NCBI GenBank assembly: GCA_030649335.1
Contig: JAUSLL010000018.1
Span: 62,001 to 126,000, forward strand
Direction of reading: 5' to 3'
DNA length: 64,000 bases
Source: Parvibaculum sp.
GTDB lineage: Bacteria > Pseudomonadota > Alphaproteobacteria > Parvibaculales > Parvibaculaceae
Part shown: positions 2,134 through 39,333 of the stretch, piece after piece
Position numbering within the stretch: position 1 is the first letter of the stretch
How the letters are laid out: the number at the start of each line of letters is the position of its first letter
Program-made: the position numbers and the translations under genes
The notes under the pieces: model-generated
Databases searched by the model: none
Seen by the model: only the letters and a program-made list of their open reading frames with translations
Told to the model about the DNA's origin: nothing

Positions 2134-3069
2134 TCAGGCCTTGGGAAAATCGAGGCCCATTTCGCGATAGCGTTCGCGATCATCGCCCCAGTTTTCGCGT
2201 ACTTTGACGAACAGGAACAGATGCACCTTGGCACCCAGCATTTCCTGCAGTTCTTCGCGCGCGAGAGTGCCGACCGTCTTGATGGTCTGGCCGCCGTCGC
2301 CGAGCGTGATTTTACGCTGACTTTCGCGCTGCACGAAAATGATCTGCTGAATGCGGATCGAGCCGTCCTTTTTTGTTTCGTAGGATTCGGTCTCGACGGT
2401 AAGCGAATATGGCAGCTCATCGTGGAGACGCAGGAACAACTTCTCGCGTGTCACTTCAGCGGCAAGCGACCGAAGGGGCACGTCAGCCAGTTGATCCTCC
2501 GGATAATGCCAGGGGCCTTTGGGCATCAGACCTGAGATGTGATGCTTCAGGTCTTCGACGCCGCTCCCGCTCATGGCGGAAATCATGAATGTGTCCGAGA
2601 ACAATCCGGTCTCATTCAACTCGGTCGCCAGCTTCAGCATCCGCTCGCGGCCTTTTTCCTGCAATGCATCGACCTTGTTGAGCGCCAGAACAGCCTTACG
2701 CTTTGGCCCGTCACCGTGCCCCTGCAAACCGTCTATGACGCGGTTCACATCGGAATCGCGCCCGCGCTCGGCATCGACCATCGCGATCACAGCATCGGCG
2801 TCACCTGCCCCGCCCCAAGCCGCATCGACCATGGCGCGATCAAGACGTCGCTTGGGTTTGAAGATGCCCGGCGTATCGACAAAGACAATCTGCGTCGCAC
2901 CATCAATGGCAATGCCACGGATGCGCGACCGCGTCGTCTGCACCTTATGCGTGACGATGGCGATCTTGGCCCCAACCAGGCTGTTCAGCAGTGTCGATTT
3001 GCCGGCATTGGGCGCGCCGATAATGGCCGCAAAGCCCGATCGTGTTTCGCCGGCGGGTGTATCAGTCAT
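2134..3069 (-). CDS. era: GTPase Era
   Basis: Ribosome-associated GTPase needed for 16S rRNA maturation and 30S assembly. The G domain shows G1 IIGAPNAGKSTLLN, G3 DTPG and G4 NKVD; the KH-like RNA-binding C-domain follows, with VTREKLFLRLHDELPYSLTV. I start it at the ATG at 3067-3069 (MTDTPAGETRSG) rather than at an upstream start that would add 12 residues inside rnc. This ATG overlaps the rnc stop as ATGACTGA, so the two are translationally coupled. The resulting 311 residues match the family length. Confidence 0.95.
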   Translation of the reverse strand: MTDTPAGETRSGFAAIIGAPNAGKSTLLNSLVGAKIAIVTHKVQTTRSRIRGIAIDGATQIVFVDTPGIFKPKRRLDRAMVDAAWGGAGDADAVIAMVDAERGRDSDVNRVIDGLQGHGDGPKRKAVLALNKVDALQEKGRERMLKLATELNETGLFSDTFMISAMSGSGVEDLKHHISGLMPKGPWHYPEDQLADVPLRSLAAEVTREKLFLRLHDELPYSLTVETESYETKKDGSIRIQQIIFVQRESQRKITLGDGGQTIKTVGTLAREELQEMLGAKVHLFLFVKVRENWGDDRERYREMGLDFPKA

Positions 3070-24502: not shown

Positions 24503-24951
24503 CTCATCAAGCCGAACTCTTTCAGAGCCGGAGCGAAATTGTCATTGCCATGGGAGGCGCGCGTCAACTTATAGAGGGCAAATCTTTGCAATCGCGTGAG
24601 GCGTAACCACGCCCCCCATTCAACAGCATGGATACCGGATGAGATCGCGAATTCCTGCAATTGGTCCGGCACGCGGGTCGGGCTATCCCACGGCAGGTTC
24701 GGTTCGGGCTGCAGATAAACAACGATCTGGCCGGTCTGTGCTTCGATGAGCGCTATAAGTTCATCGCGAAAGGCTTGAATTTGATCTTCCGTCAAGCAAA
24801 GCGTCTGCGCCAGCTCGGCTCTCTTTTCACGTCCGAAACGGCTCCATTGTTTGAGCGATAGTTTGATGCCGCACTGGTCGAGGTTGAAACGCACGACCAT
24901 GGGGATGCACCGCATCGTGCCTGCAAAATCCCGTTCGAACTCAAAAATCAT
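24499..24951 (-). CDS. nitrate reductase associated protein
   Basis: 150-residue soluble protein ending the nitrate operon. It matches my memory of the conserved nitrate-reductase-associated family found next to assimilatory nitrate reductases in cyanobacteria and proteobacteria: MIFEFERDFAGTMRCIPMVV at the start and FALYKLTRASHGNDNFAPAL near the end. Its ATG overlaps the cobA stop by 4 bp. A role in maturing or regulating nitrate reductase is inferred from context only. Confidence 0.75.
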   Translation of the reverse strand: MIFEFERDFAGTMRCIPMVVRFNLDQCGIKLSLKQWSRFGREKRAELAQTLCLTEDQIQAFRDELIALIEAQTGQIVVYLQPEPNLPWDSPTRVPDQLQEFAISSGIHAVEWGAWLRLTRLQRFALYKLTRASHGNDNFAPALKEFGLMS

Positions 24952-25769
24952 GAAGCATTCTCCATCTGCACCTGCGGCGCGTCACTCATCGCGGCGCCTG
25001 CATGTTCAAACATGAACGACACGCCGGTCTCCACATCGGCAAACACTTTGCCGACACCGATCAAAATCGGCTGATCGAGATCAAAGGCGACAATCCCTTT
25101 GGCAAGGTCGCGCAGATTGCACAACACGCGTGTTTCGTTTCGCCGTGTCAGAGCAGAAACGATAACGACCGGTGTGGCAGGCGAAGCGCCTTCGCGTATC
25201 AACCGGCGCGATAATTCACCGGACATACGTCCTCCCATATAGAAGATCGTTGTCGTGCGCGACTGCGCCAACGAGGCCCAATCAAGATCGTCGGGCAATG
25301 TGCCTTGCCGGTTGTGAGCAGTGACAAACCGGACCGACTGCGCATGGTCGCGATGGGTGAGCGACACACCGCAGGTCGCGGCCATGGCGAGCGCCGATGT
25401 CACGCCCGGCACAATAGCGACCGCTATGCCTTCGGCCCGCAGCGCCGTCATTTCCTCTCCGCCGCGACCAAAGATCATCGGATCACCGGACTTCAACCGC
25501 ACAACATGATGTCCCGCTTTGGCAAGCGTTATCATCGTCGCGTTGATGTTATCCTGCCGGCAACTCCGGCGACCGCCGCGCTTGCCAACCAGCATTCGGC
25601 GCGCTTCTGTGCGCGCGAGCTGCAAAATCTCGTCGGACACAAGGTCGTCAAACAAAATGACGTCAGCTGACTGCAGGGCGCGCAGCGCCTTGATGGTCAG
25701 CAAATCAGGGTCGCCCGTCCCCGCTCCGACCAAAGTCACGCGACCCACGCCGCCCTTGGCCGAAAGCAT
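24948..25769 (-). CDS. cobA: uroporphyrinogen-III C-methyltransferase
   Basis: Methylates uroporphyrinogen III to precorrin-2, the route to siroheme needed by NirB. The SUMT motifs are VTLVGAGTGDPDLLTIKA, VILFDDLVS, VRLKSGDPMIFGRGGEE and VPGVTSALA. The length, about 273 residues, excludes a CysG-type fusion, so dehydrogenase/ferrochelatase steps are encoded elsewhere. I start at ATG 25767-25769, just after the nasA stop; an ATG at 25802 would add 11 residues inside nasA. It is the seventh gene of the nitrate operon. Confidence 0.92.
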   Translation of the reverse strand: MLSAKGGVGRVTLVGAGTGDPDLLTIKALRALQSADVILFDDLVSDEILQLARTEARRMLVGKRGGRRSCRQDNINATMITLAKAGHHVVRLKSGDPMIFGRGGEEMTALRAEGIAVAIVPGVTSALAMAATCGVSLTHRDHAQSVRFVTAHNRQGTLPDDLDWASLAQSRTTTIFYMGGRMSGELSRRLIREGASPATPVVIVSALTRRNETRVLCNLRDLAKGIVAFDLDQPILIGVGKVFADVETGVSFMFEHAGAAMSDAPQVQMENAS

Positions 25770-25773
25770 ACTT

Positions 25774-28446
25774 TCATTCGGCAGCGATGACACTATGCGC
25801 ATCTATAAGTCCTTTGATTTCTGTCCGGCATGAGCCGCAATTCGTACCGGCCTTGAGCAAACGTCCGATAGCATCGACATCGCGGCACCCGCCGTTCGTG
25901 ACGGCGGAGGTGATCTGGTTGACGCCAACCGAGAAACAAGCGCATACCGTCGCGCCACGATCCGGCTGGTCCGCACCCGCGCGTCCGGCGGCCACACGGT
26001 ATCTCTCGCCCGCATTGGTGTGATCTTTAGACAGTTGTTCGACAGCCCATGAGCGCGAAACAGCGACGGGATGCGCTGAAAGAAAGACAGCGCCGGTCAG
26101 CACATCTCCGTCGAAAAAGGCAAACCGGTCGTGCCCCTGATCCCGGTCGCGATAAGCGAGCACAGGTGCGTCGTCTGATACGCCCACGATGGACCGAGCC
26201 AATGCCTCTGCATCATCCGTGCTCTGCACCGACGCCAATTCAACACGCCAGCCTCCGTCGCATACAGCGCGTGCCCAATAATCTGCCTTGATCCCGTCAG
26301 GTCTGGCACGACAAATGGCAAAGCCGTAGAGCTTGGCCGCCAGAGGACGAACATGAACGCGTGATGACTTCAAGGCTGGTTGACCCGAAACAGGATCGAC
26401 CAACGGCGCGACCAGCACGTCCACCCGCGCCGCACTCGCGTGTTCGTCGGTCCAGTGCACGGGCACAAACACGGCTCCCGTTTGCACGCGGCGCGTCAGC
26501 AGCGCCCGCACAAGGATACGACCTTGTGCATTCGCGAGTTCCACCACGTCAGCGTCGGCTATGCCAAGACGCGTGGCGTCCGCCGGATTGATTTCGACAA
26601 AGGGTTCGGCCATATGCGCGGCAAGCCTGTTGCTCTTGCCCGTGCGCGTCATCGTGTGCCACTGATCACGGATGCGGCCGGTGTTGAGCGTAAAACTCAG
26701 ATCGCCCGTCGTGTCGCTCACCTCTCCGGCTTTGATCGGGACAAATCTCGCCTTGCCGTCCGGCGTTGAGAATATGCCGTTGCCATAGATCCGCGATGCG
26801 TCCCTTGGTACGCCTTTGCGCCTCGGCCATTGGAAGGGGATAAGGTCGTCATAGGCGCGTGCCGTAATGTCGGCGTGAGCACCGATGTCCAGCGTTCGGG
26901 AGCCGTTATTTTCAAATCCCGTGAGCGACGCATACTCGGCAAAAATTTCATCCGGTCCCTGATAGGCAAAAGCCTTGTCGAAGCCCATGCGACAAGCGAC
27001 TTCCGAAACGATCCACCAATCCGGCATCATCTCGCCAACCGGTGGCAGAAACTTTCTCTGACGTGAGATACGCCGCTCCGAATTGGTGACTGTGCCATCC
27101 TTCTCGCCCCAGCCTGTCGCCGGCAGGCGCACACCGGCCACAGCCATTGTGTCGGTGGTCGCCGAAATATCCGAGACGACAACGAAGGGACATGCCTTGA
27201 GAGCAGCCTTAACCGCATCGGCGTCGGGCATAGAGGCTACCGGATTTGTCGCCATGATCCAGAGCGCCTTGATCTTCCCCTCGCCCACGGCCTGAAACAA
27301 GTCAACGGCCTTCAGTCCGGCTTTCTGTGCAATGGCGGGTGATTGCCAAAAGCGTTGCACGCGATCACGATCGGCGGATTTTTCGAGTTCCATATGGGCG
27401 GCAAGCATATTGGCCAGACCACCAACCTCGCGTCCGCCCATGGCATTGGGTTGACCGGTCACCGAGAACGGCCCGCAACCCGCCTGCCCGACACGGCCCG
27501 TCGCCAGATGACAATTGATGATGGCGTTGACTTTATCCGTTCCGCTCGCCGATTGATTGACGCCCTGACTATAAACCGTCACCACTTTTTTCGTTTCGGC
27601 AAAAAGGCGGAAGAAATGTTGCATGTCATCGGTGGAAAGGCCCGTGCGCTCCAGCAGATGCGCCGCGGTCAGATGACGCGCCACGTCAACGGCATCGGAA
27701 AACCCTTCGGTGTGCCGGACGACATAGTCGGTATCGACATAGGCATTATTGGCAAGGTAGGCGAGCAACCCGTTGAACAATGCCGTGTCACCGTCTGCCT
27801 TGATCGGAAGATGCAAATCCGCAATCTCGGCCGTTGTCGTACGCCGCGGATCAATGAGCACGATCTTCATTTCCGGTCGGCTGGCCTTGGCCGCAGCAAT
27901 GCGCTGAAACAATACCGGATGGCACCAGGCGAGATTGGATCCCGTCAGCACAATGAGATCGGCCTGTTCGAGGTCTTCATAATTGCCGGGCACAACATCC
28001 GCACCAAATGCGCGGCGGTGGCCTGCAACACTCGATGCCATGCACAGGCGCGAATTCGTGTCGATATTGGCCGAACCGATGAAACCCTTCATCAGCTTAT
28101 TGGCGACGTAATAATCCTCCGTCAGCATCTGACCCGACACATAGAAGGCGACCGCGTCGGGTCCGTGTTCCTCAATCGTCTTTTTGAACGTGTCAGCGAC
28201 AAGAGTAAGCGCCTTGTCCCATGAAACGCGTTCTCCGCCGATTTCCGGATGCAGAATGCGCCCATCAAGGCATACCGTTTCACCGAGCGCCGATCCTTTG
28301 GAGCAGAGCCGTCCAAAATTTGCCGGATGGTCGGGATCGCCCTTGACCGACACCTCACCTTTCGCATTCATCGAGGCAAGGACGCCGCAACCGACGCCGC
28401 AATAAGGGCAGGTTGTCTTGACCGATCCTGTGGCGTCCACCTCCAT
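25774..28446 (-). CDS. nasA: assimilatory nitrate reductase catalytic subunit
   Basis: Reduces nitrate to nitrite at a Mo-bisMGD centre. The N-terminal 4Fe-4S motif is TTCPYCGVGCGVLAS, with a further Cys in GRLCSKGSALG. Molybdopterin-binding motifs run through the ~700-residue core (for example GSNLAWCHPVLFQRI and GQPNAMGGREVGGL). The last ~55 residues form a BFD-like [2Fe-2S] domain, with CACFSVG and NCGSCRTEI cysteine pairs. 890 residues. No separate NasB/NasC reductase subunit is present, so the electron donor (ferredoxin or an unlinked diaphorase) is unknown. It lies 3 bp after nirD. Confidence 0.96.
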   Translation of the reverse strand: MEVDATGSVKTTCPYCGVGCGVLASMNAKGEVSVKGDPDHPANFGRLCSKGSALGETVCLDGRILHPEIGGERVSWDKALTLVADTFKKTIEEHGPDAVAFYVSGQMLTEDYYVANKLMKGFIGSANIDTNSRLCMASSVAGHRRAFGADVVPGNYEDLEQADLIVLTGSNLAWCHPVLFQRIAAAKASRPEMKIVLIDPRRTTTAEIADLHLPIKADGDTALFNGLLAYLANNAYVDTDYVVRHTEGFSDAVDVARHLTAAHLLERTGLSTDDMQHFFRLFAETKKVVTVYSQGVNQSASGTDKVNAIINCHLATGRVGQAGCGPFSVTGQPNAMGGREVGGLANMLAAHMELEKSADRDRVQRFWQSPAIAQKAGLKAVDLFQAVGEGKIKALWIMATNPVASMPDADAVKAALKACPFVVVSDISATTDTMAVAGVRLPATGWGEKDGTVTNSERRISRQRKFLPPVGEMMPDWWIVSEVACRMGFDKAFAYQGPDEIFAEYASLTGFENNGSRTLDIGAHADITARAYDDLIPFQWPRRKGVPRDASRIYGNGIFSTPDGKARFVPIKAGEVSDTTGDLSFTLNTGRIRDQWHTMTRTGKSNRLAAHMAEPFVEINPADATRLGIADADVVELANAQGRILVRALLTRRVQTGAVFVPVHWTDEHASAARVDVLVAPLVDPVSGQPALKSSRVHVRPLAAKLYGFAICRARPDGIKADYWARAVCDGGWRVELASVQSTDDAEALARSIVGVSDDAPVLAYRDRDQGHDRFAFFDGDVLTGAVFLSAHPVAVSRSWAVEQLSKDHTNAGERYRVAAGRAGADQPDRGATVCACFSVGVNQITSAVTNGGCRDVDAIGRLLKAGTNCGSCRTEIKGLIDAHSVIAAE

Positions 28447-28449
28447 GCG

Positions 28450-28788
28450 TCAGCGCCCCTCGCCTGAAGGGAACGACAGGAATATGTCATCGCCGTCCAG
28501 CCGCACAGGGAACCGTGCGACTTTACCTTCGTCCGCGCCGCAAGCCTCGCCGGTATCAAGCGCGATCACCCAATTATGCAGCGGGCAGGTCACGCAATCA
28601 CCGTGGACAATGCCTTGGCTCAACGGGCCGTTTTTATGCGGGCATTTATCTTCCAGCGCAAAGACACGATCATCATCCGTCCGGAAAACAGCAATCGTCA
28701 TATGACCTGCCGCGATCCGGCGAGACCCTTGGCGAGGAATATCGCTCAACCCGCCGACACGCACCCAATCCATTGTCATCACGCTCAT
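28450..28788 (-). CDS. nirD: nitrite reductase small subunit with Rieske ligands
   Basis: Partner of NirB. 112 residues with a Rieske fold. Both ligand pairs of a [2Fe-2S] cluster are visible: CPHKNGPLSQG and CPLHNW, unlike enterobacterial NirD, which lacks them. The ATG overlaps the nirB stop (ATGA). Confidence 0.94.
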   Translation of the reverse strand: MSVMTMDWVRVGGLSDIPRQGSRRIAAGHMTIAVFRTDDDRVFALEDKCPHKNGPLSQGIVHGDCVTCPLHNWVIALDTGEACGADEGKVARFPVRLDGDDIFLSFPSGEGR

Positions 28789-31232
28789 TGTGCGGCCTCC
28801 AGCGAGATTGTCGCCATGGGCTGGAACTCATGCTTATCCTTGCCCGACACACGCTCGGACCATGGGTCCACCTGAGCGAATTTCTGGGAATAAACAAAGC
28901 GGTCAAAATAGGCGCGGCGTTTTTCAACATCACCCATGATCTGTCGGCGAATTTCCTCAACGCCGACGCGCTTCGTCCACTTATAGATGCGTTCGAGATA
29001 GCGGGCCTGCTCGCGATACATCTGCACAAGCGCCACGATATGCTCGAGCGCCTCGTCCTCCGTCTCCACGTGTCCAAGTATTTCGGTTCCTTTGATGTCG
29101 AGACCGGCCGCACCGGCAAAGTGAATGTCAAAACCGGAATCGACGCAGACCACGCCCACGTCCTTGCATGTCGCTTCCGAGCAATTGCGCGGACATCCGG
29201 AAACAGCCATCTTCACTTTGGCAGGCGTCCACGATCCCCACATGAATTTCTCGATGCGGATGCCGAGACCGGTCGAGTCCTGCGTGCCGAAGCGGCACCA
29301 GTCTGTGCCCACACAGGTCTTCACCGTGCGCAGACCCTTGGCATAAGCATGACCGGAGACGAAACCTGCTAGGCCGAGATCCGCCCAGACGGCGGGCAGG
29401 TCTTCTTTTGTGATACCCAGCATGTCGATGCGCTGGCCACCGGTTACTTTGACGGCGGGAATATTGAACTTGTCCACCACGTCGGCGATGGCACGCAATT
29501 CCTTGGCACTTGTCATGCCACCCCACATGCGCGGCACGACAGAATAGGTTCCGTCCTTCTGGATATTGGCGTGTACGCGCTCATTGATAAAGCGCGACTG
29601 ATAGTCGTCGGCATATTCGCCGGGCCAATTGCAAACGAGATAATAGTTGAGTGCCGGACGGCACTTGGCGCAGCCGCCGGATGTCGTCCAGTGCAATTCC
29701 TGCATGATGGCGGGAATGGTTTTCAGCTCTTTCGCCTTGATCAACCGACGCACGTCGTCGTGACCAAGGTCCGTGCAATTGCACATGGGCTGCACAGCGG
29801 CGGGGTTATAATCGCCGCCCAGTGACAGGCTCAGCAATTGTTCCACAAGCCCCGTGCAGCTTCCGCAAGAAGCGGACGCTTTCGTTTGCGCCCTCACGCC
29901 GTCGAGCGTCGTAATACCCTTCAATGTGACAGCCGAAGTGATCTGCCCTTTGCATATGCCGTTGCACCCGCAGATCTCTGCCTCATCCGGCAAGGCTGCA
30001 ACGGCCGCCATAGGGTCCAGGGCGGCACCGCCCTGATAGGCCTGACCAAAAATCAACGTGTCGCGCATCTCGGAAATGTCAGTCGCGCTCTTCATCAGAT
30101 CGAAGAACCATGGTCCGTCGCTCGCCTCGCCATACATGACCGCGCCGACCACGCGATCGTCTTTGAGGATAAGTCGCTTGTAAATGCCTGCTGTCGCGTC
30201 TCGCAGCACGATTTCCTCGCGGTCGTCACCTTCGGCAAAGTCACCCACGGAATAAAGATCGATGCCGGTCACCTTGAGCCGTGTTGCGGTCTGCGACGCC
30301 ACGAAGTGTTGCGTCGTATCACCTCCCAGATGCGCGGCGGCAACGCCTGCCATCTGATAAAGCGGCGCGACAAGGCCGTAGCAAGTGCTGTTGATCTCCG
30401 CGCATTCACCGAGCGCATAGATGCGTTCATCACTCGTCTGCATCTGATCATTGACGACAATGCCGCGATTAACGGTGAGGCCTGCCTCTTTCGCCATTTG
30501 CGCGTTTGGCCGGATGCCGACCGCCATCACGACAAGGTCAGCCGGAATTTCCGTGCCGTCTTCAAGGCGCACGGCTTCAACCTTGCCGTTGCCTGTGATC
30601 TCTTTTGTATTGGCACCTGTGAGAACACGGATGCCGCGATCCTCAAGCGCCTTCTTCAGCAGATAGCCCGCCGAACTGTCGAGCTGGCGTTCCATCAGCG
30701 TCGGCATCAGATGAATGACCGTCACCGTCATGCCCTGCATCTGCAAACCGGCGGCAGCTTCAAGACCCAACAAACCGCCACCGATCACGACCGCGTGGCC
30801 ACGGCCCTTTGCGGCGAGCAGCATGGCATGCACATCGTCGAGGTCGCGATAGGTGAGAACACCTGCGAGATTATGGCCGGGCACCGGAATGACAATCGGC
30901 ACCGAACCTGTAGCGATCACCAGCTTGTCGTAAGGAGCCACTTCGCCATGCTCGGAACGCACGGTGCGCTTGGCACGGTCGATCTCGACGACCTTGTGGC
31001 TCTTGTAGAGCATGATGCCACGCTCGACGTACCAGCCGTCACCATGAATGATGATTTCTTCAAATGCTTTTTCGCCGGAGAGCACCGGCGACAGCAAAAT
31101 GCGGTCATAATTGACGCGCGATTCCGCATTGAAAATCGTGACCTCATATTGATCCGGTGCGATTTCAAACAACCGCTCCAGCATTCTGCCGGGCGCCATG
31201 CCATTGCCGATGATGACGAGTTTCTCAGCCAT
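28785..31232 (-). CDS. nirB: NAD(P)H-dependent nitrite reductase large subunit
   Basis: Reduces nitrite to ammonium with six electrons from NAD(P)H. 815 residues. Domains: FAD/NAD(P)H-binding (about 1-400, LVIIGNGMAPGRMLERL and VVIGGGLLGLEAAAGLQMQG), two BFD-like [2Fe-2S] units (CGCNGICKGQI with SCGSCTG, then CNCTD with CAKCRP), and the siroheme/4Fe-4S part (TCVGTDWCRFGTQDS and SGCPRNCSEATCKD). I use ATG 31230-31232, preceded by AAGGA; a longer frame would overlap the ABC ATPase gene. Siroheme would come through the nearby CobA. Confidence 0.96.
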   Translation of the reverse strand: MAEKLVIIGNGMAPGRMLERLFEIAPDQYEVTIFNAESRVNYDRILLSPVLSGEKAFEEIIIHGDGWYVERGIMLYKSHKVVEIDRAKRTVRSEHGEVAPYDKLVIATGSVPIVIPVPGHNLAGVLTYRDLDDVHAMLLAAKGRGHAVVIGGGLLGLEAAAGLQMQGMTVTVIHLMPTLMERQLDSSAGYLLKKALEDRGIRVLTGANTKEITGNGKVEAVRLEDGTEIPADLVVMAVGIRPNAQMAKEAGLTVNRGIVVNDQMQTSDERIYALGECAEINSTCYGLVAPLYQMAGVAAAHLGGDTTQHFVASQTATRLKVTGIDLYSVGDFAEGDDREEIVLRDATAGIYKRLILKDDRVVGAVMYGEASDGPWFFDLMKSATDISEMRDTLIFGQAYQGGAALDPMAAVAALPDEAEICGCNGICKGQITSAVTLKGITTLDGVRAQTKASASCGSCTGLVEQLLSLSLGGDYNPAAVQPMCNCTDLGHDDVRRLIKAKELKTIPAIMQELHWTTSGGCAKCRPALNYYLVCNWPGEYADDYQSRFINERVHANIQKDGTYSVVPRMWGGMTSAKELRAIADVVDKFNIPAVKVTGGQRIDMLGITKEDLPAVWADLGLAGFVSGHAYAKGLRTVKTCVGTDWCRFGTQDSTGLGIRIEKFMWGSWTPAKVKMAVSGCPRNCSEATCKDVGVVCVDSGFDIHFAGAAGLDIKGTEILGHVETEDEALEHIVALVQMYREQARYLERIYKWTKRVGVEEIRRQIMGDVEKRRAYFDRFVYSQKFAQVDPWSERVSGKDKHEFQPMATISLEAAQ

Positions 31233-31236
31233 ATCC

Positions 31237-32997
31237 TTACTCCGCAGCTTCAATGTCTTTGCCGACAAACGTGTCTGATTTCTGAGCCCGCTTTTGCGTG
31301 ATGGCTTCAAGCGTTTCTGCCGAGGGGTTGGCACCGCCCTCATAGGCTTCCAGAAAATCGAGCAGCTCTTCGCGATAGGCGTAATAATCGGGGTGAGCGA
31401 GCAAGCTCTTGCGCGAACGCGGACGCGGCAGATCGACTTTCATAATATTGCCAATCTTGGCGTTCGGTCCGTTGCTCATCATCACAACGCGGTCGGCCAG
31501 CAGGATCGCTTCATCAACGTCATGCGTCACGCAAATCGCCGTCACTTCGGTGCGCGTCCAGACGTCCATCAGCACGTCCTGCAACTCCCAGCGCGTCAGA
31601 CTGTCCAACATGCCGAAAGGTTCATCGAGCAAAAGTAGCTTGGGTGACAGAGCAAAGGCGCGCGCAATTCCCACACGCTGCTTCATGCCGTTCGACAGAT
31701 CCGCCGCGCGCTTGTGCATGGCGTCGCCGAGCCCAACGCGATGCAAATAATACTCGACGATGTCTTTGCGTTCGGCGGGAGTCGCATTGGGATAAACCCG
31801 GTCCACACCCAGAGCCACATTCTCGCGCGCCGTGAGCCAAGGCATCAGCGATGGTGCCTGAAACACAACAGCGCGGTCGGGACCGGCACCGACAACCTCG
31901 TGCCCGTCGAGAATGATGCCGCCCGATGAAATCGAATTCAGCCCCGCGATCATCGACATAACAGTGGATTTGCCGCAGCCCGAATGACCGATCAGCGAAA
32001 TGAATTCGCCGCGCTTCATCTTGAGGTCGAACCCGTCCACCACAGTCAGCGGACCCTTGGGTGTTGGATAGACTTTGGTAACGCCGGAGAATTCGACATA
32101 GCCCTTGGTAATCGGCGAATGAGCCGCGTCCTCATAGGCCTTGGGGAGTTTGATCTTTGTGTTGTTCAGACGGATCGGCAAAACATCCGGCAGCATCAAG
32201 CCGTCGGGAATGCCGCTCACGCGGTCCGCACCCATATCCATCAGATATTTGGTGACAGCCGCACGCAACCGGATGAATTCCGCATCATGGTTCATCGCGC
32301 CACGTTCGCGCGGGCGCGCGATATTGACGTCAAAGGCAGGGCCGAGAGACGCACGCGGTCCGGGCTTCAGCGGAATAATCCGGTCGGCCAGCAGAATGGC
32401 TTCATCGACATCATTGGTGATGAGAACGATGGTTCGCTTTTCTTTCTGCGAAATCTCGGCGAACTCATCTTGCAACTTCGCCCGCGTCAGCGCGTCAAGC
32501 GCCGACAGAGGTTCATCAAGCAACAGGATTTCCGGCTGCATGGCAAGCGCACGGGCAACGGCCACACGCTGGCGCATTCCGCCTGACAACTCGCCGGGAC
32601 GACGGTCAGCAGCATGGCTGAGCCCCACCATCTCGATATAATGCGTGACAAGCTTTGCCCGCTCAGCGCTTGATTTTTTGCGGAAGACACTATCAACGGC
32701 CAGCGCGATATTGCCGCGCACCGACAACCAAGGCATCAGCGAATAGGACTGGAACACAACGCCGCGCTCCGGCCCCGGACCTTTCACCGGCACACCTTTG
32801 AATTTGATCTCGCCGCTGTCGGGATCAATCAGCCCCGCGAGCGCCGAAATGAGCGTCGTCTTGCCCGAGCCGGAAAAACCGACAATGGCAATGAACTCGC
32901 CCTCCTCGACCGTCAGATTAATGTCTTCCAGCACATCGGTCCGCGACGCGCCGGAACCGTAGGATTTACAGAGACCATTGATCTCGAGAATACTCAC
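31237..32997 (-). CDS. nitrate ABC transporter, fused double ATPase (NrtC/NrtD type)
   Basis: 586 residues containing two complete ATPase domains in one chain. The first (1-250) has Walker [17 protein letters not shown] and signature [15 protein letters not shown]; the second (about 295-550) has [16 protein letters not shown] and [15 protein letters not shown]. Each has its Walker B LLLDEP. There is no NrtA-like solute-binding domain at the C-terminus, unlike cyanobacterial NrtC. It energises NrtB for nitrate uptake. 9 bp after nrtB and 4 bp before nirB. Confidence 0.93.
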
Positions 32998-33006
32998 TCG
33001 TGTCTC

Positions 33007-34080
33007 CTATCGGTTCGCTTGAAAAGTGAACGCCGTCTGCAGCGCGAACATGATGCGATCGAGAGCAAAACCAATGACGCCGATGGTCAACACGGCGACC
33101 ATGATGCGGGCGAGCGAGTTGGACGAACCGTTCTGGAATTCATCCCAGACGAATTTTCCAAGTCCCGGATTTTGCGCGAGCATCTCGGCGGCAATCAGCA
33201 CCATCCAACCGACACTGAGCGACAGGCGCAGGCCGGTGAAAATCAGCGGCAGAGCCGAAGGCAGCACCAGCTTGCGAATGGTTGTGAAAGTCGAAAGCTG
33301 TAACACCTTGCCGACGTTCATCAGATCCTTATCAATCGAGGCGACGCCCATCGCGGTGTTGATCAGCGTCGGCCAGAGCGAACAGAGCGTCACCGTGACT
33401 GCCGAGATCACCAGCGATTTCGGCAAGGCCTCACTGGCATCGACATAAACCGCCGAGACAATCATGGTGACAATCGGCAGCCATGCGAGCGGCGACACAG
33501 GCTTGAATATCTGGATCAGCGGATTCAATGCACCATTGACGGTACGACTGAGGCCGGACGCGATACCCACCGGCACGGCAATGAATGTCGCAATCAGAAA
33601 GCCGAGACCGACCGTCTTGAGCGAGGTGAGTATCTGGTCAAGATAGGTCGGTTGACCTGTGTAATCGTGATGACGCACGCGGTCGGGTTCACCCTGCGCG
33701 ATGAAGGCCTCATTGCGCTCGGACTGGCGGGTATAGAAGTCCGCCTGCCGTTGACGGGCCGCCGCATAATCCTGCGCGAGGCTTTCAGCCTGTTCCCACA
33801 CCTGTACAGGACCAGGGATCGCGCCCAGCGAGGTCGTCACCCGGGGCGCGAGAACGCCCCAGGCGACGAGGAACAGCGCGATGCCGATCAGCGGCACGAA
33901 CAGACTTTCACGCAACACCACCATCTGTTCGCGCGGGCTGTCGCCTGCCGCCATCTTCAGCAATGGCACAATCCAGCCAAAGCCGAGAATGTCGAGCCAG
34001 CGGGAGGATTTGTTAAGCGCGGCAAAGAGCTTCTCGCGCTTTGGTCTTTGTGTTGCACCTGTTTCAGTCAGCATCGCCAT
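33007..34080 (-). CDS. nrtB: nitrate ABC transporter permease
   Basis: BPD-type permease, 357 residues, with about six membrane segments and the EAA-like loop around SIDKDLMNVGKVLQLSTF. A soluble N-terminal extension and a ~60-residue charged insert (AAARQRQADFYTRQSERNEA region, near 105-150) come before the core. Membrane component of the NrtA-NrtB-NrtCD importer. Confidence 0.93.
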   Translation of the reverse strand: MAMLTETGATQRPKREKLFAALNKSSRWLDILGFGWIVPLLKMAAGDSPREQMVVLRESLFVPLIGIALFLVAWGVLAPRVTTSLGAIPGPVQVWEQAESLAQDYAAARQRQADFYTRQSERNEAFIAQGEPDRVRHHDYTGQPTYLDQILTSLKTVGLGFLIATFIAVPVGIASGLSRTVNGALNPLIQIFKPVSPLAWLPIVTMIVSAVYVDASEALPKSLVISAVTVTLCSLWPTLINTAMGVASIDKDLMNVGKVLQLSTFTTIRKLVLPSALPLIFTGLRLSLSVGWMVLIAAEMLAQNPGLGKFVWDEFQNGSSNSLARIMVAVLTIGVIGFALDRIMFALQTAFTFQANR

Positions 34081-34122
34081 GGGGGAGGTCCTTATGTATA
34101 GGGCGCGGGAGAATACAGACGT

Positions 34123-35553
34123 TCATTTCGCAACAATCTTTGTGCCGACGACCTGCTCTTTGCCCTTCAGGCCGAGCGTGAAGCTGTCGATGTAAGCATT
34201 GGGTGTGTGGCCGTCATAAGCGATGCCGTCGATGAAATCGGCCGTCGGCACTTTGTAGCCATCGCTGGTCCAGGGAAAGTCGTCGCTCTTTGCTTTGCCT
34301 TCATCCACCAAAGCGCGCGCGGCTTTGAGGTAGATGTCGGGCCGATAGACAGACTTCGCTGTATCCGCATACCAGGCATCGGGCTTGCTTGTGTCGATCT
34401 GTCCCCAGCGGCGCATCTGCGTGAGAAACCACACAGCGTCGGAATAAAAGGGATAGGTCGCATTGTAACGGAAGAAGACGTTGAAATCGGGAATGTCGCG
34501 CTTGTCGCCCTTTTCATATTCAAACGTGCCGGTCATCGAATTAGCGATCACGACGGCGTCCGCCCCGACATAGTTTGGCTTGGAGAGAATGCGCACGGCC
34601 TCAGCGCGGTTCGCGCCGTGGTCAGCGTCGAGCCATTCAGCCGCGCGGATCAGGGCCTTGGTGAGCGCGATCACCGTGTTGGGATTCTTCTCGGCAAATT
34701 CCGCCGTGATGCCGAAGACTTTTTCGGGATTGTTCTTCCAAATTTCCGTGTCGGTGATTACCGGCACACCGATACCTTTGAACACAGCCGCCTGGTTCCA
34801 CGGCTCGCCGACGCAATAGCCGTCAATCGTGCCGGCTTCGAGCGTCGCGGGCATCTGAGGCGGCGGCGTTACGGAGAGCAGAACATCGGCGCCGATCTTG
34901 CCCGATGTGTCACCCGCCGAATAAAGCCCGGGGTTCAATCCGCCAGCGGCCAGCCAATAGCGCAAATAGTAGTTATGCGTCGAAACCGGAAAGACCATGC
35001 CCATGTTGAAGGACTTGCCGTCGGCCTTATATGCCGCCACGACCGGCTTCAGCGCGCTGGCCGGAATGGGATGTGCAGGCCTTCCGTCCGCCTGCATTTT
35101 AATATGCGGCTTCATCGCGTCCCAGACAGCATTCGACACGGTGATGCCATTGCCATTCAAGTCCATCGAGAAAGGCGTCACGATATGCGCTTTGGTGCCG
35201 AAGCCGATGGTGGCAGCCAGCGGCTGGCCCGCCAGCATATGCGCACCATCGAGCTGACCTGTGATGACGCGGTCGAGCAGGACTTTCCAGTTCGCCTGCG
35301 CTTCCAGCGTCACAAAAAGACCTTCGTCTTCGAAGAAACCCTTCTCATAAGCAATCGCCAGCGGTGCCATATCAGTGAGCTTGATGAAGCCGAGCTTCAA
35401 TTGCTCTTTTTCGAGGCGCAGCGGTTCAGCCTTCACAGGTGTCGAAACAAAAAATCCCGCCGACAGGCTGAGCAACAATGCCGTCGCGCCGAGCAACAGC
35501 CCGCGCCGCTTTACCAAAACATTCGACAACTTCCCGCCAAACCTATCGCTCAT
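34123..35553 (-). CDS. nrtA: nitrate ABC transporter substrate-binding protein
   Basis: Periplasmic nitrate-binding protein, 476 residues. The N-terminus has a basic pair then a hydrophobic core ([19 protein letters not shown]), a Tat- or Sec-like signal ending near VKAEP. Conserved NrtA stretches include [40 protein letters not shown] and [13 protein letters not shown] precedes ATG 35551-35553. It is first in an eight-gene operon that runs to 24499. Its 5' leader carries a terminator and an ANTAR-type hairpin, so read-through should depend on NasT. Confidence 0.95.
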
Positions 35554-35595
35554 CGGTTACTCCGCTTCCGCGTCTGCAAGACGCGTTTGAAAAAC

Positions 35596-35657
35596 AAAAA
35601 AGCCGCCCGACTGAGACCACCGCCCGTCCAAGGGCGACACTTCAGTTCGGCGGCTTT
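35596..35657 (-). terminator. conditional terminator in nrtA leader
   Basis: On the minus strand AAAGCCGCC (from 35657) pairs with GGCGGC plus TTTTTT (35607-35596); inside, AACTGA/TCAGT and CGCCC/GGGCG extend the hairpin around a TTGGAC apical loop. The T-run ends 43 nt before the nrtA ATG. A strong terminator in the leader of a long operon fits antitermination by NasT. Confidence 0.82.
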
Positions 35658-35670
35658 GCCAACGTGAGCA

Positions 35671-35713
35671 GCATTCTTCGTTGAACGCGCTTATGCACGA
35701 CCCGTCATGGGTC
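35671..35713 (-). promoter_or_regulatory. probable ANTAR (NasT) target hairpins, nrtA leader
   Basis: Two hairpins precede the terminator on the minus strand. The second, GCGTTC-AACGAA-GAATGC (35688-35671), is a 6-bp stem with a hexaloop having A at position 1 and G at 4, the rule for ANTAR targets. The first, GACCC-ATGAC-GGGTC (35713-35699), has a five-base loop and so matches less well. They are 10 nt apart. Confidence 0.65.
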
Positions 35714-35991
35714 TGAAATACACAGAGCAGAATTCGTGCCAATCGCTCTGCCGCATCACATCCGGCGGAAAGCTGCGTCTTTCGGCATCGGACCTGCATC
35801 GCCGCGCCGACGGATTGCTTTGTAGCGCTGCACAAATAATAGGCGTCCAGACAGAAATTTATGCATCGCACCATTTTTCAACGCTCGATAGTCCCTGCCC
35901 CGCAGCAATTCGGTTCCGGCCAACACAAACGCCAAATTGACAGGCGCGAATTCAACGATAGGTTCGGCTTCATAGTGTTCAGGAGGCCAAA

Positions 35992-36573
35992 CTGAAAATT
36001 GCTGTTGTTGACGAGAGTGCTGCCCGTGCGGAAGTGATCGCAGAAGGTCTGCGTGAAGCAGGCCTCACCGATGTGCACCTTCTCGTCGAACGCACCGGCC
36101 TCGTCGCGCGTCTGACCTCGCTCGCGCCGGATGTCATTCTCATCAATCTCGAAAACCCGCGCCGCGACATGCTGGAAGAAAGCTTCACCCTGTCGCGCGC
36201 ACTGTCGCGCCCGATTGCCATGTTCGTCGATCAGACAGACGAGCGCGCCATTTCCGAAGCGGTGGATGCCGGCATCTCCGCCTATGTCGTCGATGGCATG
36301 CGCAAGGAGCGCATCAAACCCATTCTCGAACTTGCCGTCCGCCGGTTTCATGCCTTCGCCAGACTTCAGGGCGAATTGGCGGAAGCCAAATCCGCGCTCG
36401 CTGAACGCAAAACCGTAGACAAAGCGAAGATGTTGCTGATGAAACGCCGCAAGATTGACGAAGCGACGGCCTACGCGCTGTTGCGCAAGCAAGCCATGGA
36501 CAGCGGCCGCCGCATCGCCGATGTCGCCGAAGCCCTGATCTCCGTCGAAGCCTTGCTCGGAGACCAGACATGA
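35992..36573 (+). CDS. nasT: nitrate-responsive ANTAR antiterminator NasT
   Basis: Response-regulator-like RNA-binding protein: receiver domain (about 1-120) and C-terminal ANTAR domain (about 130-190, KAKMLLMKRRKIDEATAYAL and ending VAEALISVEALLG). The best start is CTG 35992-35994: a perfect AGGAGG (35981-35986) lies five bases upstream, and the product MKIAVVDESAARAEV begins exactly like a receiver domain with its acidic pair. The next common start, GTG 36034, has no ribosome site and would delete strand 1 and the DE pair. The stop overlaps nasS (ATGA). Known NasT proteins are held by NasS and released by nitrate. Confidence 0.92.
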   Translation: MKIAVVDESAARAEVIAEGLREAGLTDVHLLVERTGLVARLTSLAPDVILINLENPRRDMLEESFTLSRALSRPIAMFVDQTDERAISEAVDAGISAYVVDGMRKERIKPILELAVRRFHAFARLQGELAEAKSALAERKTVDKAKMLLMKRRKIDEATAYALLRKQAMDSGRRIADVAEALISVEALLGDQT

Positions 36574-37787
36574 CACATTTCAGAATTGGTTTTCTGCCGC
36601 TCGTCGATGCTGTCTTGCCGATTGTCGCCCATGAATCCGGCATCGCGCACAAACACGGCATCTCCATCGAGATGGTCAAAGACCCGAGCTGGGCCACCGT
36701 GCGCGACCGCCTCGTCTATGGCCAGACCGATGCCGCGCATCTCCTCGCACCACTCGCCATCGCGACCTCGCTCGGTCTCGACCAGACCAAGACGAGCACA
36801 CCGCTCGCAGCGCCTTTCATGCTGGGGCTCAACGGTAACGCGATCACTGTCAGCCCCCGCGTCGCTACCCTGCTCGCCGCCGACCGCAACAGCTTTGCCG
36901 ATGTAAAACAAACCGGCATGCGACTTGCCGCACTGGCAAAAACATCCGCCGCCGAAGGTCGCAAATTGCGCCTCGCCGTGGTGCATCGTCATTCAAGCCA
37001 CAATTACATGTTGCGCTATTGGCTCGCGGCCAGCGGCTGCGATCCGGAAACCGATGTCGAAATCATTGTTGTGCCGCCGCCCTTCATCGCCGACGCGTTG
37101 AAAAGCGGTGAAGTGGATGGTTCATGTGTCGGCGAACCCTGGAGCAGCGTCGCCGTTGCCCGTGGTGTCGGCCAGATCATTGCCACCACGGCCCAGATAT
37201 GGAGCCGCGGTGTCGAAAAACTTCTCGCCTTCCGCAAGAGCCTGCTCGATGAACGTCGAGACGAGGTGGAAGCACTGTTGCGGGCGCTCCACGAGGCCGG
37301 ACACTTTGTCTCCGATCCCGCCAACGCGATGAATGTCGCTGACATACTGGCGCGACCCGCCTACATCGACCAGCCCGCCACCCTCATCGCACGTGCGCTC
37401 ACAAACCGGCTGGCTCTCACACAGGACGACGCAGAGCAGCCTGTGAGAGACTTTCTTTTCCTGCATCAGGAAGCAGCCAATTTCCCGTGGCGCAGTCAGG
37501 CCATGTGGCTTTATTCCCAGATGGTGCGCTGGGGTCACGCACCGGGCACCGACGCAGGCTTTGCCGCTGCCGCGGATGTTTTCCGACCCGACATTTACCG
37601 TGCGGCGCTGGAAGGCACAGACGCCGTCATGCCGGGCGCCAGCGCCAAAGTCGAAGGCGCGATCCGCACCCCGACAGGCGCGTCTACCGTCAGTGGACGT
37701 CTTATTCTTGGGCCCGACAGCTTCTTTGACGGGCGCAATTTCGATCCCGACAAGCCGATGGATTATCTGGCAGCGCAGACACAGTGA
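36570..37787 (+). CDS. nasS: nitrate sensor NasS
   Basis: Cytoplasmic NrtA-like binding protein that senses nitrate and sequesters NasT. 405 residues with no signal peptide (MTHFRIGFLPLVDAVLPIVA), sharing with NrtA the blocks NYMLRYWLAASG, VVPPPFIADALKSGEVDG and GSCVGEPWSSVAVARG. Coupling to nasT by ATGA and lack of export signal separate it from a true NrtA. In the known system nitrate binding frees NasT. Confidence 0.93.
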   Translation: MTHFRIGFLPLVDAVLPIVAHESGIAHKHGISIEMVKDPSWATVRDRLVYGQTDAAHLLAPLAIATSLGLDQTKTSTPLAAPFMLGLNGNAITVSPRVATLLAADRNSFADVKQTGMRLAALAKTSAAEGRKLRLAVVHRHSSHNYMLRYWLAASGCDPETDVEIIVVPPPFIADALKSGEVDGSCVGEPWSSVAVARGVGQIIATTAQIWSRGVEKLLAFRKSLLDERRDEVEALLRALHEAGHFVSDPANAMNVADILARPAYIDQPATLIARALTNRLALTQDDAEQPVRDFLFLHQEAANFPWRSQAMWLYSQMVRWGHAPGTDAGFAAAADVFRPDIYRAALEGTDAVMPGASAKVEGAIRTPTGASTVSGRLILGPDSFFDGRNFDPDKPMDYLAAQTQ

Positions 37788-37893
37788 CGACTTATTTTTG
37801 TTGCGTCGCAAAATTCCCCTTGCGGTGCAACACGATTTTGTGAAACGTTTATGACGCACAGATAGCAATGTCTGAAACATAGAGGCGGACCAC

Positions 37894-37936
37894 CCCCAAT
37901 GATGGGGATCATGTCTACCTTCCGGCAATGATGCCG
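37894..37936 (+). promoter_or_regulatory. dual-hexaloop ANTAR (NasT) target, porin leader
   Basis: CCCC-AATGAT-GGGG (37894-37907) and CGGC-AATGAT-GCCG (37923-37936) are two stems with the same hexaloop, A at position 1 and G at 4, 15 nt apart. This is exactly the two-hairpin ANTAR target. Downstream, CGAAC (37939-37943) can pair with GTTCG (37962-37966), which would break the terminator stem. Confidence 0.85.
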
Positions 37937-37954
37937 CCCGAACCGGTTTGTATG

Positions 37955-37979
37955 AACCGCCGTTCGAGGCGGTTTTTTT
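37955..37979 (+). terminator. conditional terminator in porin leader
   Basis: AACCGCC-GTTCGA-GGCGGTT followed by a T-run to 37979. It lies 168 nt after the nasS stop and 82 nt before the porin start. It could end nasTS transcripts and be relieved for porin expression by NasT bound at 37894-37936. Confidence 0.88.
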
Positions 37980-38061
37980 GCGTCCGGTGCATTGATTTGT
38001 ACCCGGACGAACGAGACCTGCTGCGCGTTTTTCAAATTTTCCTTCTGCCCCGGGGGCTTCA

Positions 38062-39333
38062 ATGAAGACACATAGACATCAAGATCAGTTCAAATCGGTG
38101 AACGCATCTGGACTACTTTCGCACCTTTCCGGTCCAAAGCTGGCCGTAGGCTTCATCGGCATACTCACAGCCCTGCAAACACCGGCACAGGCGGCAGACC
38201 CGGTTTGGACACCGCTTCTCGACGCTCGCCTGCGCTACGAAAATGTCGATCAAACCGGCTTTGCCAAAGATGCAGACGCCACCACCGCGCGGTTGCGCGC
38301 CGGATTGCAATTCACCAACGGCGATGTGTCGATCCTCGGCGAAGCAGAAGGCACATTGGCGCTCAGCGAGCGCTACAACAGCACAACCAACGGCAAGACG
38401 GCTTATCCCGTTGTTGCAGACCCCGAAAATGCCGAACTCAACCGGTTGCAAATCCAATACACGGGCATCGACAAAACCACCTTCACGGTCGGCCGCCAGC
38501 GCATCAATATCGACGACCAGCGTTTTGTGGGCAGCGTCGGTTGGCGTCAAAACGAGCAGACATTTGATGCCATCCGCGTCGAGAGCACGGCGCTCGGCCC
38601 CCTCAAGGCTGACGTGACATACAGCTGGGCCAACCGCACCATCTTCGGCTACGACAGCCCTATCCAGTCTATTTCCGGCAGCAATGTGTTTGCCACGCTG
38701 AGCGCGGACATCAGCATGGTCACGCTCGAAGGCTTCACCTTCCTTGTTGATCAGGACGAATTCGGCAGGCGTCAGTTTTCAAGCCAGACATATGGTCTGC
38801 GCGCATCAGGCAAATTCGATCTGGCAACCGACACATCTCTTGCGCTCGCGGCAGGCTATGCAACGCAGGCCGATTGGAAAAACAATCCCAATGACTACAA
38901 GGCCGACTACTGGCTAGCCGATGCTTCACTCACCCTCGGCAAGTTCGGCCTCAACGCGAATTACGAAATTCTCGGCGCAGACACCGGCGCGGCGAACACC
39001 AGTTTCCAGACGCCGCTCGCCACTTTGCATAAATTTCAGGGGTGGGCCGACAAATTCCTGACAACACCCGCCAACGGTATCCGCGATCTTCAGGGTGGTG
39101 CGAGTTATGCGCCGGGCAAGATCGGCATTCTCGGGCCGGTCAAATTCGTGGTGGCTTACCACCAGTTCGACAGCGACATCGGCTCCAGCCATTACGGCAA
39201 CGAGTGGGATGCCCAGATCGTTATCAAGCCCCGTCCCGACACAACCGTCATCGCAAAGTTTGCCGACTATAAGTCCGACACGTTTGCGACAGACACGCAG
39301 AAAATATGGATAGAGATCGGTTACGCCTTATGA
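38062..39333 (+). CDS. outer-membrane porin, alginate-export-like family
   Basis: 423 residues: an N-terminal export segment (about 25-45, LAVGFIGILTALQTPAQAA) and a beta-barrel of alternating strands ending in an aromatic/hydrophobic IWIEIGYAL. Early repeats such as DARLRYENVDQTGF and TARLRAGLQF fit the alginate-export-type barrel family. Alginate synthesis genes are absent, so a nitrate or nitrite entry porin is the better guess, from its position after nasTS and its ANTAR leader. This function is inferred. No clear ribosome site beyond GGGGG upstream. Confidence 0.75.
   Translation: MKTHRHQDQFKSVNASGLLSHLSGPKLAVGFIGILTALQTPAQAADPVWTPLLDARLRYENVDQTGFAKDADATTARLRAGLQFTNGDVSILGEAEGTLALSERYNSTTNGKTAYPVVADPENAELNRLQIQYTGIDKTTFTVGRQRINIDDQRFVGSVGWRQNEQTFDAIRVESTALGPLKADVTYSWANRTIFGYDSPIQSISGSNVFATLSADISMVTLEGFTFLVDQDEFGRRQFSSQTYGLRASGKFDLATDTSLALAAGYATQADWKNNPNDYKADYWLADASLTLGKFGLNANYEILGADTGAANTSFQTPLATLHKFQGWADKFLTTPANGIRDLQGGASYAPGKIGILGPVKFVVAYHQFDSDIGSSHYGNEWDAQIVIKPRPDTTVIAKFADYKSDTFATDTQKIWIEIGYAL

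Follow-up and report, generated by a model that had tools for sequence, protein, structure and literature searches.

The window analyzed here, a 64,000-nucleotide stretch of a Parvibaculum sp. genome (contig JAUSLL010000018.1), carries an outer-membrane porin gene behind nasT and nasS and raises the question of whether a porin can be switched on by nitrate at the RNA level, along with nitrate uptake and reduction. In our analysis, the stretch at 37.88-37.98 kb is probably a NasT-responsive ANTAR leader of the porin gene. Its parts, their overlap, its place, and its recurrence in relatives were established by computation, and from these we infer that NasT binds the leader, that nitrate governs the response, and that the porin serves as a route for nitrate.

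Genes around the leader

The window carries the following genes and elements around the porin leader.

24948-35553, minus strand: nrtA-nrtB-nrtC-nirB-nasA-cobA-like genes, behind a second leader and divergent from nasT (open reading frames; Pfam NMT1_2 for NrtA)
35596-35658, minus strand: terminator of the nrtA leader, using the 3' arm of its P2 hairpin
35647-35690, minus strand: hairpins P1 (GCGTTC-AACGAA-GAATGC) and P2 (TTGGC-AAAGCC-GCCGA) of this second NasT-type leader, before nrtA (hairpin rule; top window match of covariance model R2)
35992-36573, plus strand: nasT, response-regulator-like receiver and ANTAR RNA-binding domain (Pfam ANTAR 7.8e-19 over 35995-36570)
36570-37787, plus strand: nasS, directly after nasT, NMT1_2/NrtA-like (PF13379, 2e-69)
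38062-39333, plus strand: outer-membrane porin, ATG 38062, 423 amino acids, Alginate_exp (PF13372, Pfam 1.5e-07)

Pfam matches to Alginate_exp, ANTAR, and NMT1_2 bear out an earlier sequence-only reading of this DNA, which had placed a porin gene just downstream of nasT-nasS. The gap between nasS and the porin spans 274 nt and holds two hairpins (P1 and P2) and a terminator; the gene downstream of the porin lies on the opposite strand. NasT is the one ANTAR match in its own genome (completeness 92.8%), and NasS, judged from its position beside nasT, is probably the nitrate sensor. The genes behind nrtA we take to be nrtB, nrtC, nirB, nasA, and a cobA-like gene, names given by sequence recognition. 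By eye, nasT seems to start at CTG 35992 after AGGAGG (35981-35999) and not at an ATG, GTG, or TTG; the first GTG, at 36034, would cut into the NasT receiver domain.

Contamination or misbinning of the contig was considered and rejected, as its GatB finds a match in 23 of the 26 other genomes of the genus, with 79-93% identity. A near-palindrome, TGTTGCGTCGCAAAA...TTGCGGTGCAACA, lies at window positions 37799-37832, directly 3' of nasS, and is possibly an operator or promoter element; a related box, CTGCAAAAA, was seen by eye after nasS in several sphingomonads. On the minus strand, a sigma-54-like site with one mismatch (TGGCACGAATTCTGCT, 35726-35741) stands about 36 nt before P1 of the nrtA leader, and only its place speaks for it, the pattern being about as frequent in the window as in shuffles.

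Hairpins and terminators of the porin leader

The porin leader itself comprises these elements.

37884-37920, plus strand: possible outer stem enclosing P1 and taking up the linker (minimum free energy fold; energy fraction 0.035 against shuffled flanks), suggestive only
37894-37907, plus strand: P1 hairpin CCCC-AATGAT-GGGG with an A1/G4 hexaloop (sequence; helix predicted at the aligned place by RNAalifold over 22 leaders)
37923-37936, plus strand: P2 hairpin CGGC-AATGAT-GCCG, whose 3' arm doubles as the 5' arm of the main terminator
37933-37979, plus strand: main intrinsic terminator, GCCGCC plus CGAAC against GTTCG-A-GGCGGT, T7 tract at 37973-37979 (-23.9 kcal/mol in isolation), which excludes P2
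37954-37979, plus strand: second, shorter terminator (backup) with hairpin GAACCGCC/GGCGGTTT at 37954-37975 (-13.3 kcal/mol), compatible with P2

The twin AATGAT hairpins, 15 nt apart (14 if P2 is given a fifth pair) and followed by a terminator, are present just where they had been noticed. Their hexaloops are identical (AAUGAU in the RNA) with A at position 1 and G at position 4, a trait of ANTAR targets, and P2 overlaps an intrinsic terminator, a trait of the attenuation type. Since GCCG is common to P2 and the main terminator, the two are mutually exclusive, and the main switch is hairpin 2 versus the main terminator. The sequence-only reading had not named this decisive overlap between the P2 3' arm and the terminator's 5' arm; it had proposed that an alternative CGAAC/GTTCG pairing (37939-37943 with 37962-37966) breaks the terminator. 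That pairing does disrupt the backup hairpin at 37954-37975, which is probably the breakable stem that was meant, but it belongs to the main terminator.

The segment 37880-37985 folds better than its own shuffles (z -4.08), and free RNA prefers the terminator at 37933-37979, with GCCGCC pairing GGCGGT in the outer arm and CGAAC pairing GTTCG in the middle. Over 37884-37982, the energy is -43.6 kcal/mol with the main terminator, -36.1 kcal/mol with P1, P2, and the backup hairpin, and -33.6 kcal/mol with P1, P2, and CGAAC/GTTCG. In the growing transcript, P2 is weak to moderate alone, its probability ranging over 0.03-0.86 as far as 37964. Once P1 and P2 are locked, CGAAC/GTTCG is the first to form and persists until 37972 (0.93), and from 37974 on the backup hairpin wins at equilibrium (0.81-0.98). 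The finished leader with P1 and P2 locked prefers the backup terminator at equilibrium (0.96-0.98), which counts against a NasT switch; as polymerase covers the last bases, the backup probably forms too late to stop transcription, a point that depends on equilibrium values. The backup terminator arises from a second CCGCC inside the main terminator loop, and NasT on P2 would not remove it; by eye, a similar leader at locus L078 is without the CCGCC repeat.

Without nitrate, NasS would hold NasT, the leader would fold into the terminator at 37933-37979, and transcription would stop before the porin. With nitrate or nitrite, freed NasT would bind both AAUGAU hexaloops and hold the second hairpin, thereby withholding its 3' arm GCCG from the main terminator, while CGAAC/GUUCG would keep the backup hairpin from forming in time, such that RNA polymerase could read into the porin gene. 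With the nrtA operon on the other strand behind its own leader, outer-membrane entry, uptake, and reduction would then respond together.

The same sensor/ANTAR pair, leader logic, and neighborhood are found in the NasS-NasT antitermination of nas operons as far as the available text of the sources describes it (Paracoccus denitrificans, the nosR case of Bradyrhizobium diazoefficiens, and, as cited there, Azotobacter vinelandii). The targets described in those portions are nas, nos, nap, and related genes, whereas in the window a porin stands first behind the leader. In P. denitrificans, according to the accessible parts of the reports, nitrate leads to binding of NasT to the nasA leader RNA (PMC3795266). 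Altering hairpin HI there abolishes growth on nitrate; altering HII has little effect on nitrate, which counts against a switch by the second hairpin, and doubles activity on ammonium (PMC5424462). The window leader likewise shares with ANTAR dual-hairpin RNAs (EutV/eutP, AmiR/amiE, NasR/nasF) two A1/G4 hexaloop hairpins with P2 overlapping a terminator, and it adds a possible longer outer stem under P1 and a second terminator hairpin. The eut leaders of Enterococcus faecalis, in the part of the study at hand, have linkers of 5-12 nt, and induction fell drastically when the linker was extended to 14 nt (PMC3369931); the 15 nt of the window leader depart from this eut trait, which need not define the family, as linkers are 28-35 nt in aligned sphingomonad leaders and about 5-6 nt in Parvibaculum leaders. 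Given the 15-nt linker, the backup terminator, and the placing of the proposed switch pairing inside the main terminator, to speak of a textbook ANTAR target, as had been done, is too strong.

Chance expectation and covariance searches

A different account of these hairpins is that an ordinary terminator merely ends the nasTS transcripts, with hexaloops arising by chance and a porin promoter in 37980-38061. Intergenic terminators are indeed common, and dual hexaloop hairpins alone turned up 2.06 times on average when both strands of a Markov copy of the window were counted, against 4 times in the real window, so that two such hairpins by themselves are no more than chance. The picture changes under the full rule, two hexaloop hairpins plus a T-run terminator using the second hairpin's 3' arm, with thresholds set after the leader had been seen: it gave just 25 matches in 200 Markov windows (24 windows with at least one), and the 3 matches in the real window fall at two sites, both in gaps adjoining nasTS. 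Over 104 sources, the full rule gave 41 redundant matches, some of them register doubles, a few chance-like, and others cases in which the terminator's own loop is taken for P2; an equal Markov control gave 0, and about 2 would be expected from the 200-window Markov run. A sigma-70-type scan of the plus strand in 35400-38100 found a promoter neither before the porin nor before P1 and therefore favors neither reading. As the window leader also aligns with sphingomonad leaders behind nasS, among which P1 covaries, we regard an ordinary terminator as very improbable.

Covariance searches, which the sequence-only reading had proposed as a check, gave a divided picture. Model R1, built from 13 leaders with both window leaders included, found the porin leader: in its own-genome search the two window leaders, both in the training set, scored 2.4e-5 and 1.6e-4, and the next match 0.18. 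Of its 25 other own-genome matches, 18 were inspected (L151-L168), and 4 showed a P2-like hairpin under a loosened rule, among them only one with a T6 run (L157, with a 3-bp P2 about 70 nt before the model match); all inspected matches read as chance, which leaves two credible ANTAR leaders in the genome, before nrtA and before the porin. Model R2, built from 11 leaders with the window sequences left out, had its linkers trimmed by hand because MAFFT, in three alignments of the untrimmed leaders, put the hairpins out of register. In the window it placed the nrtA leader first (E 0.015) and the porin leader only at rank 7 (11.8 bits, E 0.54), and neither leader was among its own-genome matches (150 of 4270 first-look candidates scored). 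At the Rfam gathering cut-offs only a tRNA matched, with no match over either leader. Rfam matches at E values up to 10 were all far below cut-off and taken as chance: the porin leader drew RcsR1, the nrtA leader drew DUF3800-IX and P11, and M23 fell within nasS. Since R2 does not single out the porin leader, sequence and hairpins alone are no proof, and the overlap, the place, and the homology carry the case.

Leaders in sphingomonads

RNAalifold over 22 leaders predicted both hairpins, with changes on both sides in 4 of 5 P1 pairs; each P1 pair is broken in 2-6 rows, and covariation contributes little (term -0.36). The 21 rows besides the window had been selected for a P2 of GTGGC type downstream of nasS, L081 on visual reading, P1 being no criterion; the folds of 11 of the 21 had been seen beforehand, and the Sphingomonadales leaders L069, L071, and L073-L077 were left out. 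Pair counts on alignment A2 (97.5% paired) are partly circular because its rows were chosen by the hairpin rule. By rule, an A1/G4 P1 is present in 16 of the 22 leaders, with linkers of 28-35 nt in the 15 besides the window; Parvibaculum leaders have about 5-6 nt. Outer pairs around P1 averaged 9.8 in the 16 leaders versus 6.5 in shuffled flanks, and the energy fraction was at most 0.05 in 2 of 16, with a combined p of 0.003 (0.008 without the window) over rows that are related. Folding of the linker into such an outer stem below P1 may bring the window P1 next to P2.

Porin loci elsewhere were collected by a contig scan with the porin alignment, from which the best 80 of 583 confirmed candidates were analyzed (records L107, L110, L112, L114, and L115 repeat genomes of the order). 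In 48 of these 80, the porin strand also carries, within the locus, a nas, nrt, or nir relative (one of them, L124, through a 26% NasA-like match alone), and 34 carry NasT. In the 600 nt before the porin, P2 with a terminator occurs in 9 of the 34 loci with NasT and in 2 of the 46 lacking it; one of the latter, L146 (Niveispirillum), is followed by nrt relatives, and the other match, L127, looks like chance. L081, missed by the rule because of four T, was added by eye. For the other 25 of the 34 NasT-bearing loci, a point against the switch, the rule detects nothing in the 600 nt next to the porin, and in 18 of these the leader stands further upstream, before nrt or other genes preceding the porin. 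In sphingomonads the genes usually run in the order nasTS, leader, nrtABC or other genes, porin, nirB, nasA; three Sphingomonadales loci show the direct order nasTS-leader-porin, two by rule (L085, L103) and one by eye (L081). A second ANTAR-type P2-plus-terminator was seen between porin and nirB in several loci (L082 at 7332, L092 at 7267, L099 at 7316, L100 at 7392, L105 at 7267, and others), and such sphingomonad nas operons may be one operon with internal switches. In three gammaproteobacterial loci (L136, L138, L142), leader and porin stand before nasT, and a canonical P1 was not found there; at L142 (Porticoccaceae), a further P2-plus-terminator match lies before nrtA at 9150.

Porin leaders in the order

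Within the order, 40 genomes were searched. An ANTAR protein was found in 19, one each, and porin relatives at 1e-10 gave 24 matches in 21 genomes. In 15 of the 19 NasT-bearing genomes, the porin lies directly behind a NasT-type leader (in one of them, G021, with nasT on another contig). Fourteen of the 15 pass the two-hairpin rule, L010 and L013 only at its 30-nt limit; the remaining one, G007, has P2 and terminator with a P1 loop, AACATG, that is without G4. As for the other four, G010 has P2 and terminator between nasS and nrtA, a hairpin above without A1, and a contig that ends in nrtB; in G011 the porin lies elsewhere and lacks a leader, and none was detected in the nasTS loci of that genome; and G031 and G036 gave no porin match. 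A dual leader was counted for none of the nine other porin matches in the order. Together, the single ANTAR gene, the two credible leaders in the genome, and the recurring leader-porin pairing make NasT control of the porin the best reading, as had been predicted, even though R2 fails to bring the porin leader forward in the window or in the genome. The arrangement, which sequence comparison places in the order, in sphingomonads, and in some gammaproteobacteria, is not peculiar to the window genome.

Three genomes without an ANTAR match (G019, G024, G032) keep P2 and terminator in their porin leaders and have no A1/G4 P1.

L007, about 2812-2841, minus strand: P2-plus-terminator porin leader without NasT, Parvibaculum group
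L008, about 1274-1303: the same
L015, about 1275-1304: the same

Rule matches in these three take P2 for P1 and the terminator loop for P2 and were not counted as dual. Such leaders look like relics decaying after NasT loss, and since the three genomes form one clade, the decay was perhaps a single event.

Could the window leader be a relic as well, brought in from a sphingomonad-type nas operon (nasTS, leader, other genes, porin), rearranged so that it responds poorly to NasT and now serving as a plain attenuator or as the nasTS terminator? The 15-nt linker, the backup terminator that is independent of P2, and the retention of P2 and terminator without an A1/G4 P1 in three genomes of the genus that lack NasT would fit, as would the grouping of the window porin with sphingomonad nas porins and the alignment of its leader with theirs. 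Both window hexaloops are, however, intact and identical, NasT is encoded next door, and the same direct order is found in the three Sphingomonadales loci, which makes a relic unlikely in our view.

Fold and relatives of the porin

A quick-method tree with SH-aLRT support, built from 104 porins of which 99 differ, makes the window porin sister to that of Sphingomonas kyeonggiensis (96), with 56-60% identity. The window porin falls within groups of 27 (97) and 34 rows (100) made up mainly of sphingomonads, apart from Parvibaculum porins. In the 34-row set, 32 of the 34, the window porin included, are nas-linked by labels we set ourselves. Sphingomonad nas-operon porins of this clade mostly stand behind other genes, before nirB, whereas the window porin comes first behind the leader. 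Leader-bearing porins fall in different clades, and the author-set label for a leader directly before the porin changes six times on the tree, five of these changes being forced by starred branches. In the tree labels, 'up' includes L081 and L109 by eye, and 'embedded' denotes same-strand gene order, co-transcription not implied. We suggest a sphingomonad-like source for nasTS, leader, and porin; GC content does not stand out, and the contig itself is Parvibaculum-type. Judged by GatB, the closest genome is G031, which has no porin and whose nas cluster differs from that of the window (identity 32% for NasT, 39% for NasS); its locus L198 (G031:C36:282000-301500) encodes NasT, NasS, then nirB and nasA, which suggests exchange of nas clusters within the genus.

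Alginate_exp (PF13372) matches the window porin with 31 bits against a cut-off of 25.2, over residues 98-293 only, and no PDB sequence match was found at E values up to 1. The AlphaFold model (44 sequences) is an 18-strand barrel with mean pLDDT 84.4, residues 1-40 being poor. This is likewise the form of the Occ (OprD/OpdK) and AlgE channels, and Foldseek gave OpdQ, OpdK, and other Occ channels as nearest solved folds at E about 1e-14, with AlgE lower (8e-12). TM by query was 0.64-0.68 for the ten best matches, all from a predicted model, and the structural alignments with matched Occ and AlgE folds have 11-17% identity; by sequence, within the PDB search at E values up to 1, the porin shows no relation to solved Occ/OpdK members.

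Occ channels prefer anions, and Occ/OpdK channels pass carboxylates. It is thus a substantial possibility, though one we lean against, that the porin is NasT-controlled and yet general or carboxylate-passing, its co-control serving another nutrient or general permeability, which is compatible with the switch. The nearest folds point that way, as do the 32 of the best 80 of 583 loci in which a nas relative was not found, some of them on short contigs; the 34-row set of the window porin, mostly nas-linked, points the other way.

Implications

No NasT-controlled porin was described in the titles and abstract openings that we searched, most subscription papers and preprints lying outside, and the view that such a target is little described fits this literature; searches that paired alginate export with nasS, or that asked for nitrate porins, found nothing. 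The word porin is absent from the main texts, as available, of PMC6759348, PMC3795266, PMC5424462, and PMC3369931. In B. diazoefficiens, the accessible part of the study reports, among genes lowered in a nasT mutant, a clear hairpin only at a coxS-like gene and nirA, and the outer-membrane protein gene blr1311 goes up, not down (PMC6759348). The behavior of blr1311 speaks against a general rule.

The NasT-controlled porin, a well-supported prediction, would extend a known switch to a target of a new kind. Going further, we tentatively propose, at somewhat less than even confidence, that porins have been put under NasT leaders more than once in Proteobacteria (in sphingomonad, Parvibaculaceae, and gammaproteobacterial clades) as a recurrent nitrate-dedicated anion channel, RNA-switched with uptake and reduction, and that in some Alphaproteobacteria a two-tier P1 lets long linkers work. 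The long-linker leaders test how far apart two ANTAR hairpins may lie.

The NasT literature, in the portions available, describes nitrate assimilation from the inner membrane inwards. Switch-porin pairings in several groups suggest an outer-membrane door for nitrate that is opened only when nitrate is present. If the porin is a direct NasT target that has been recruited several times, outer-membrane permeability to nitrate would be a regulated step, and the porin family would become a concrete candidate for a nitrate channel.
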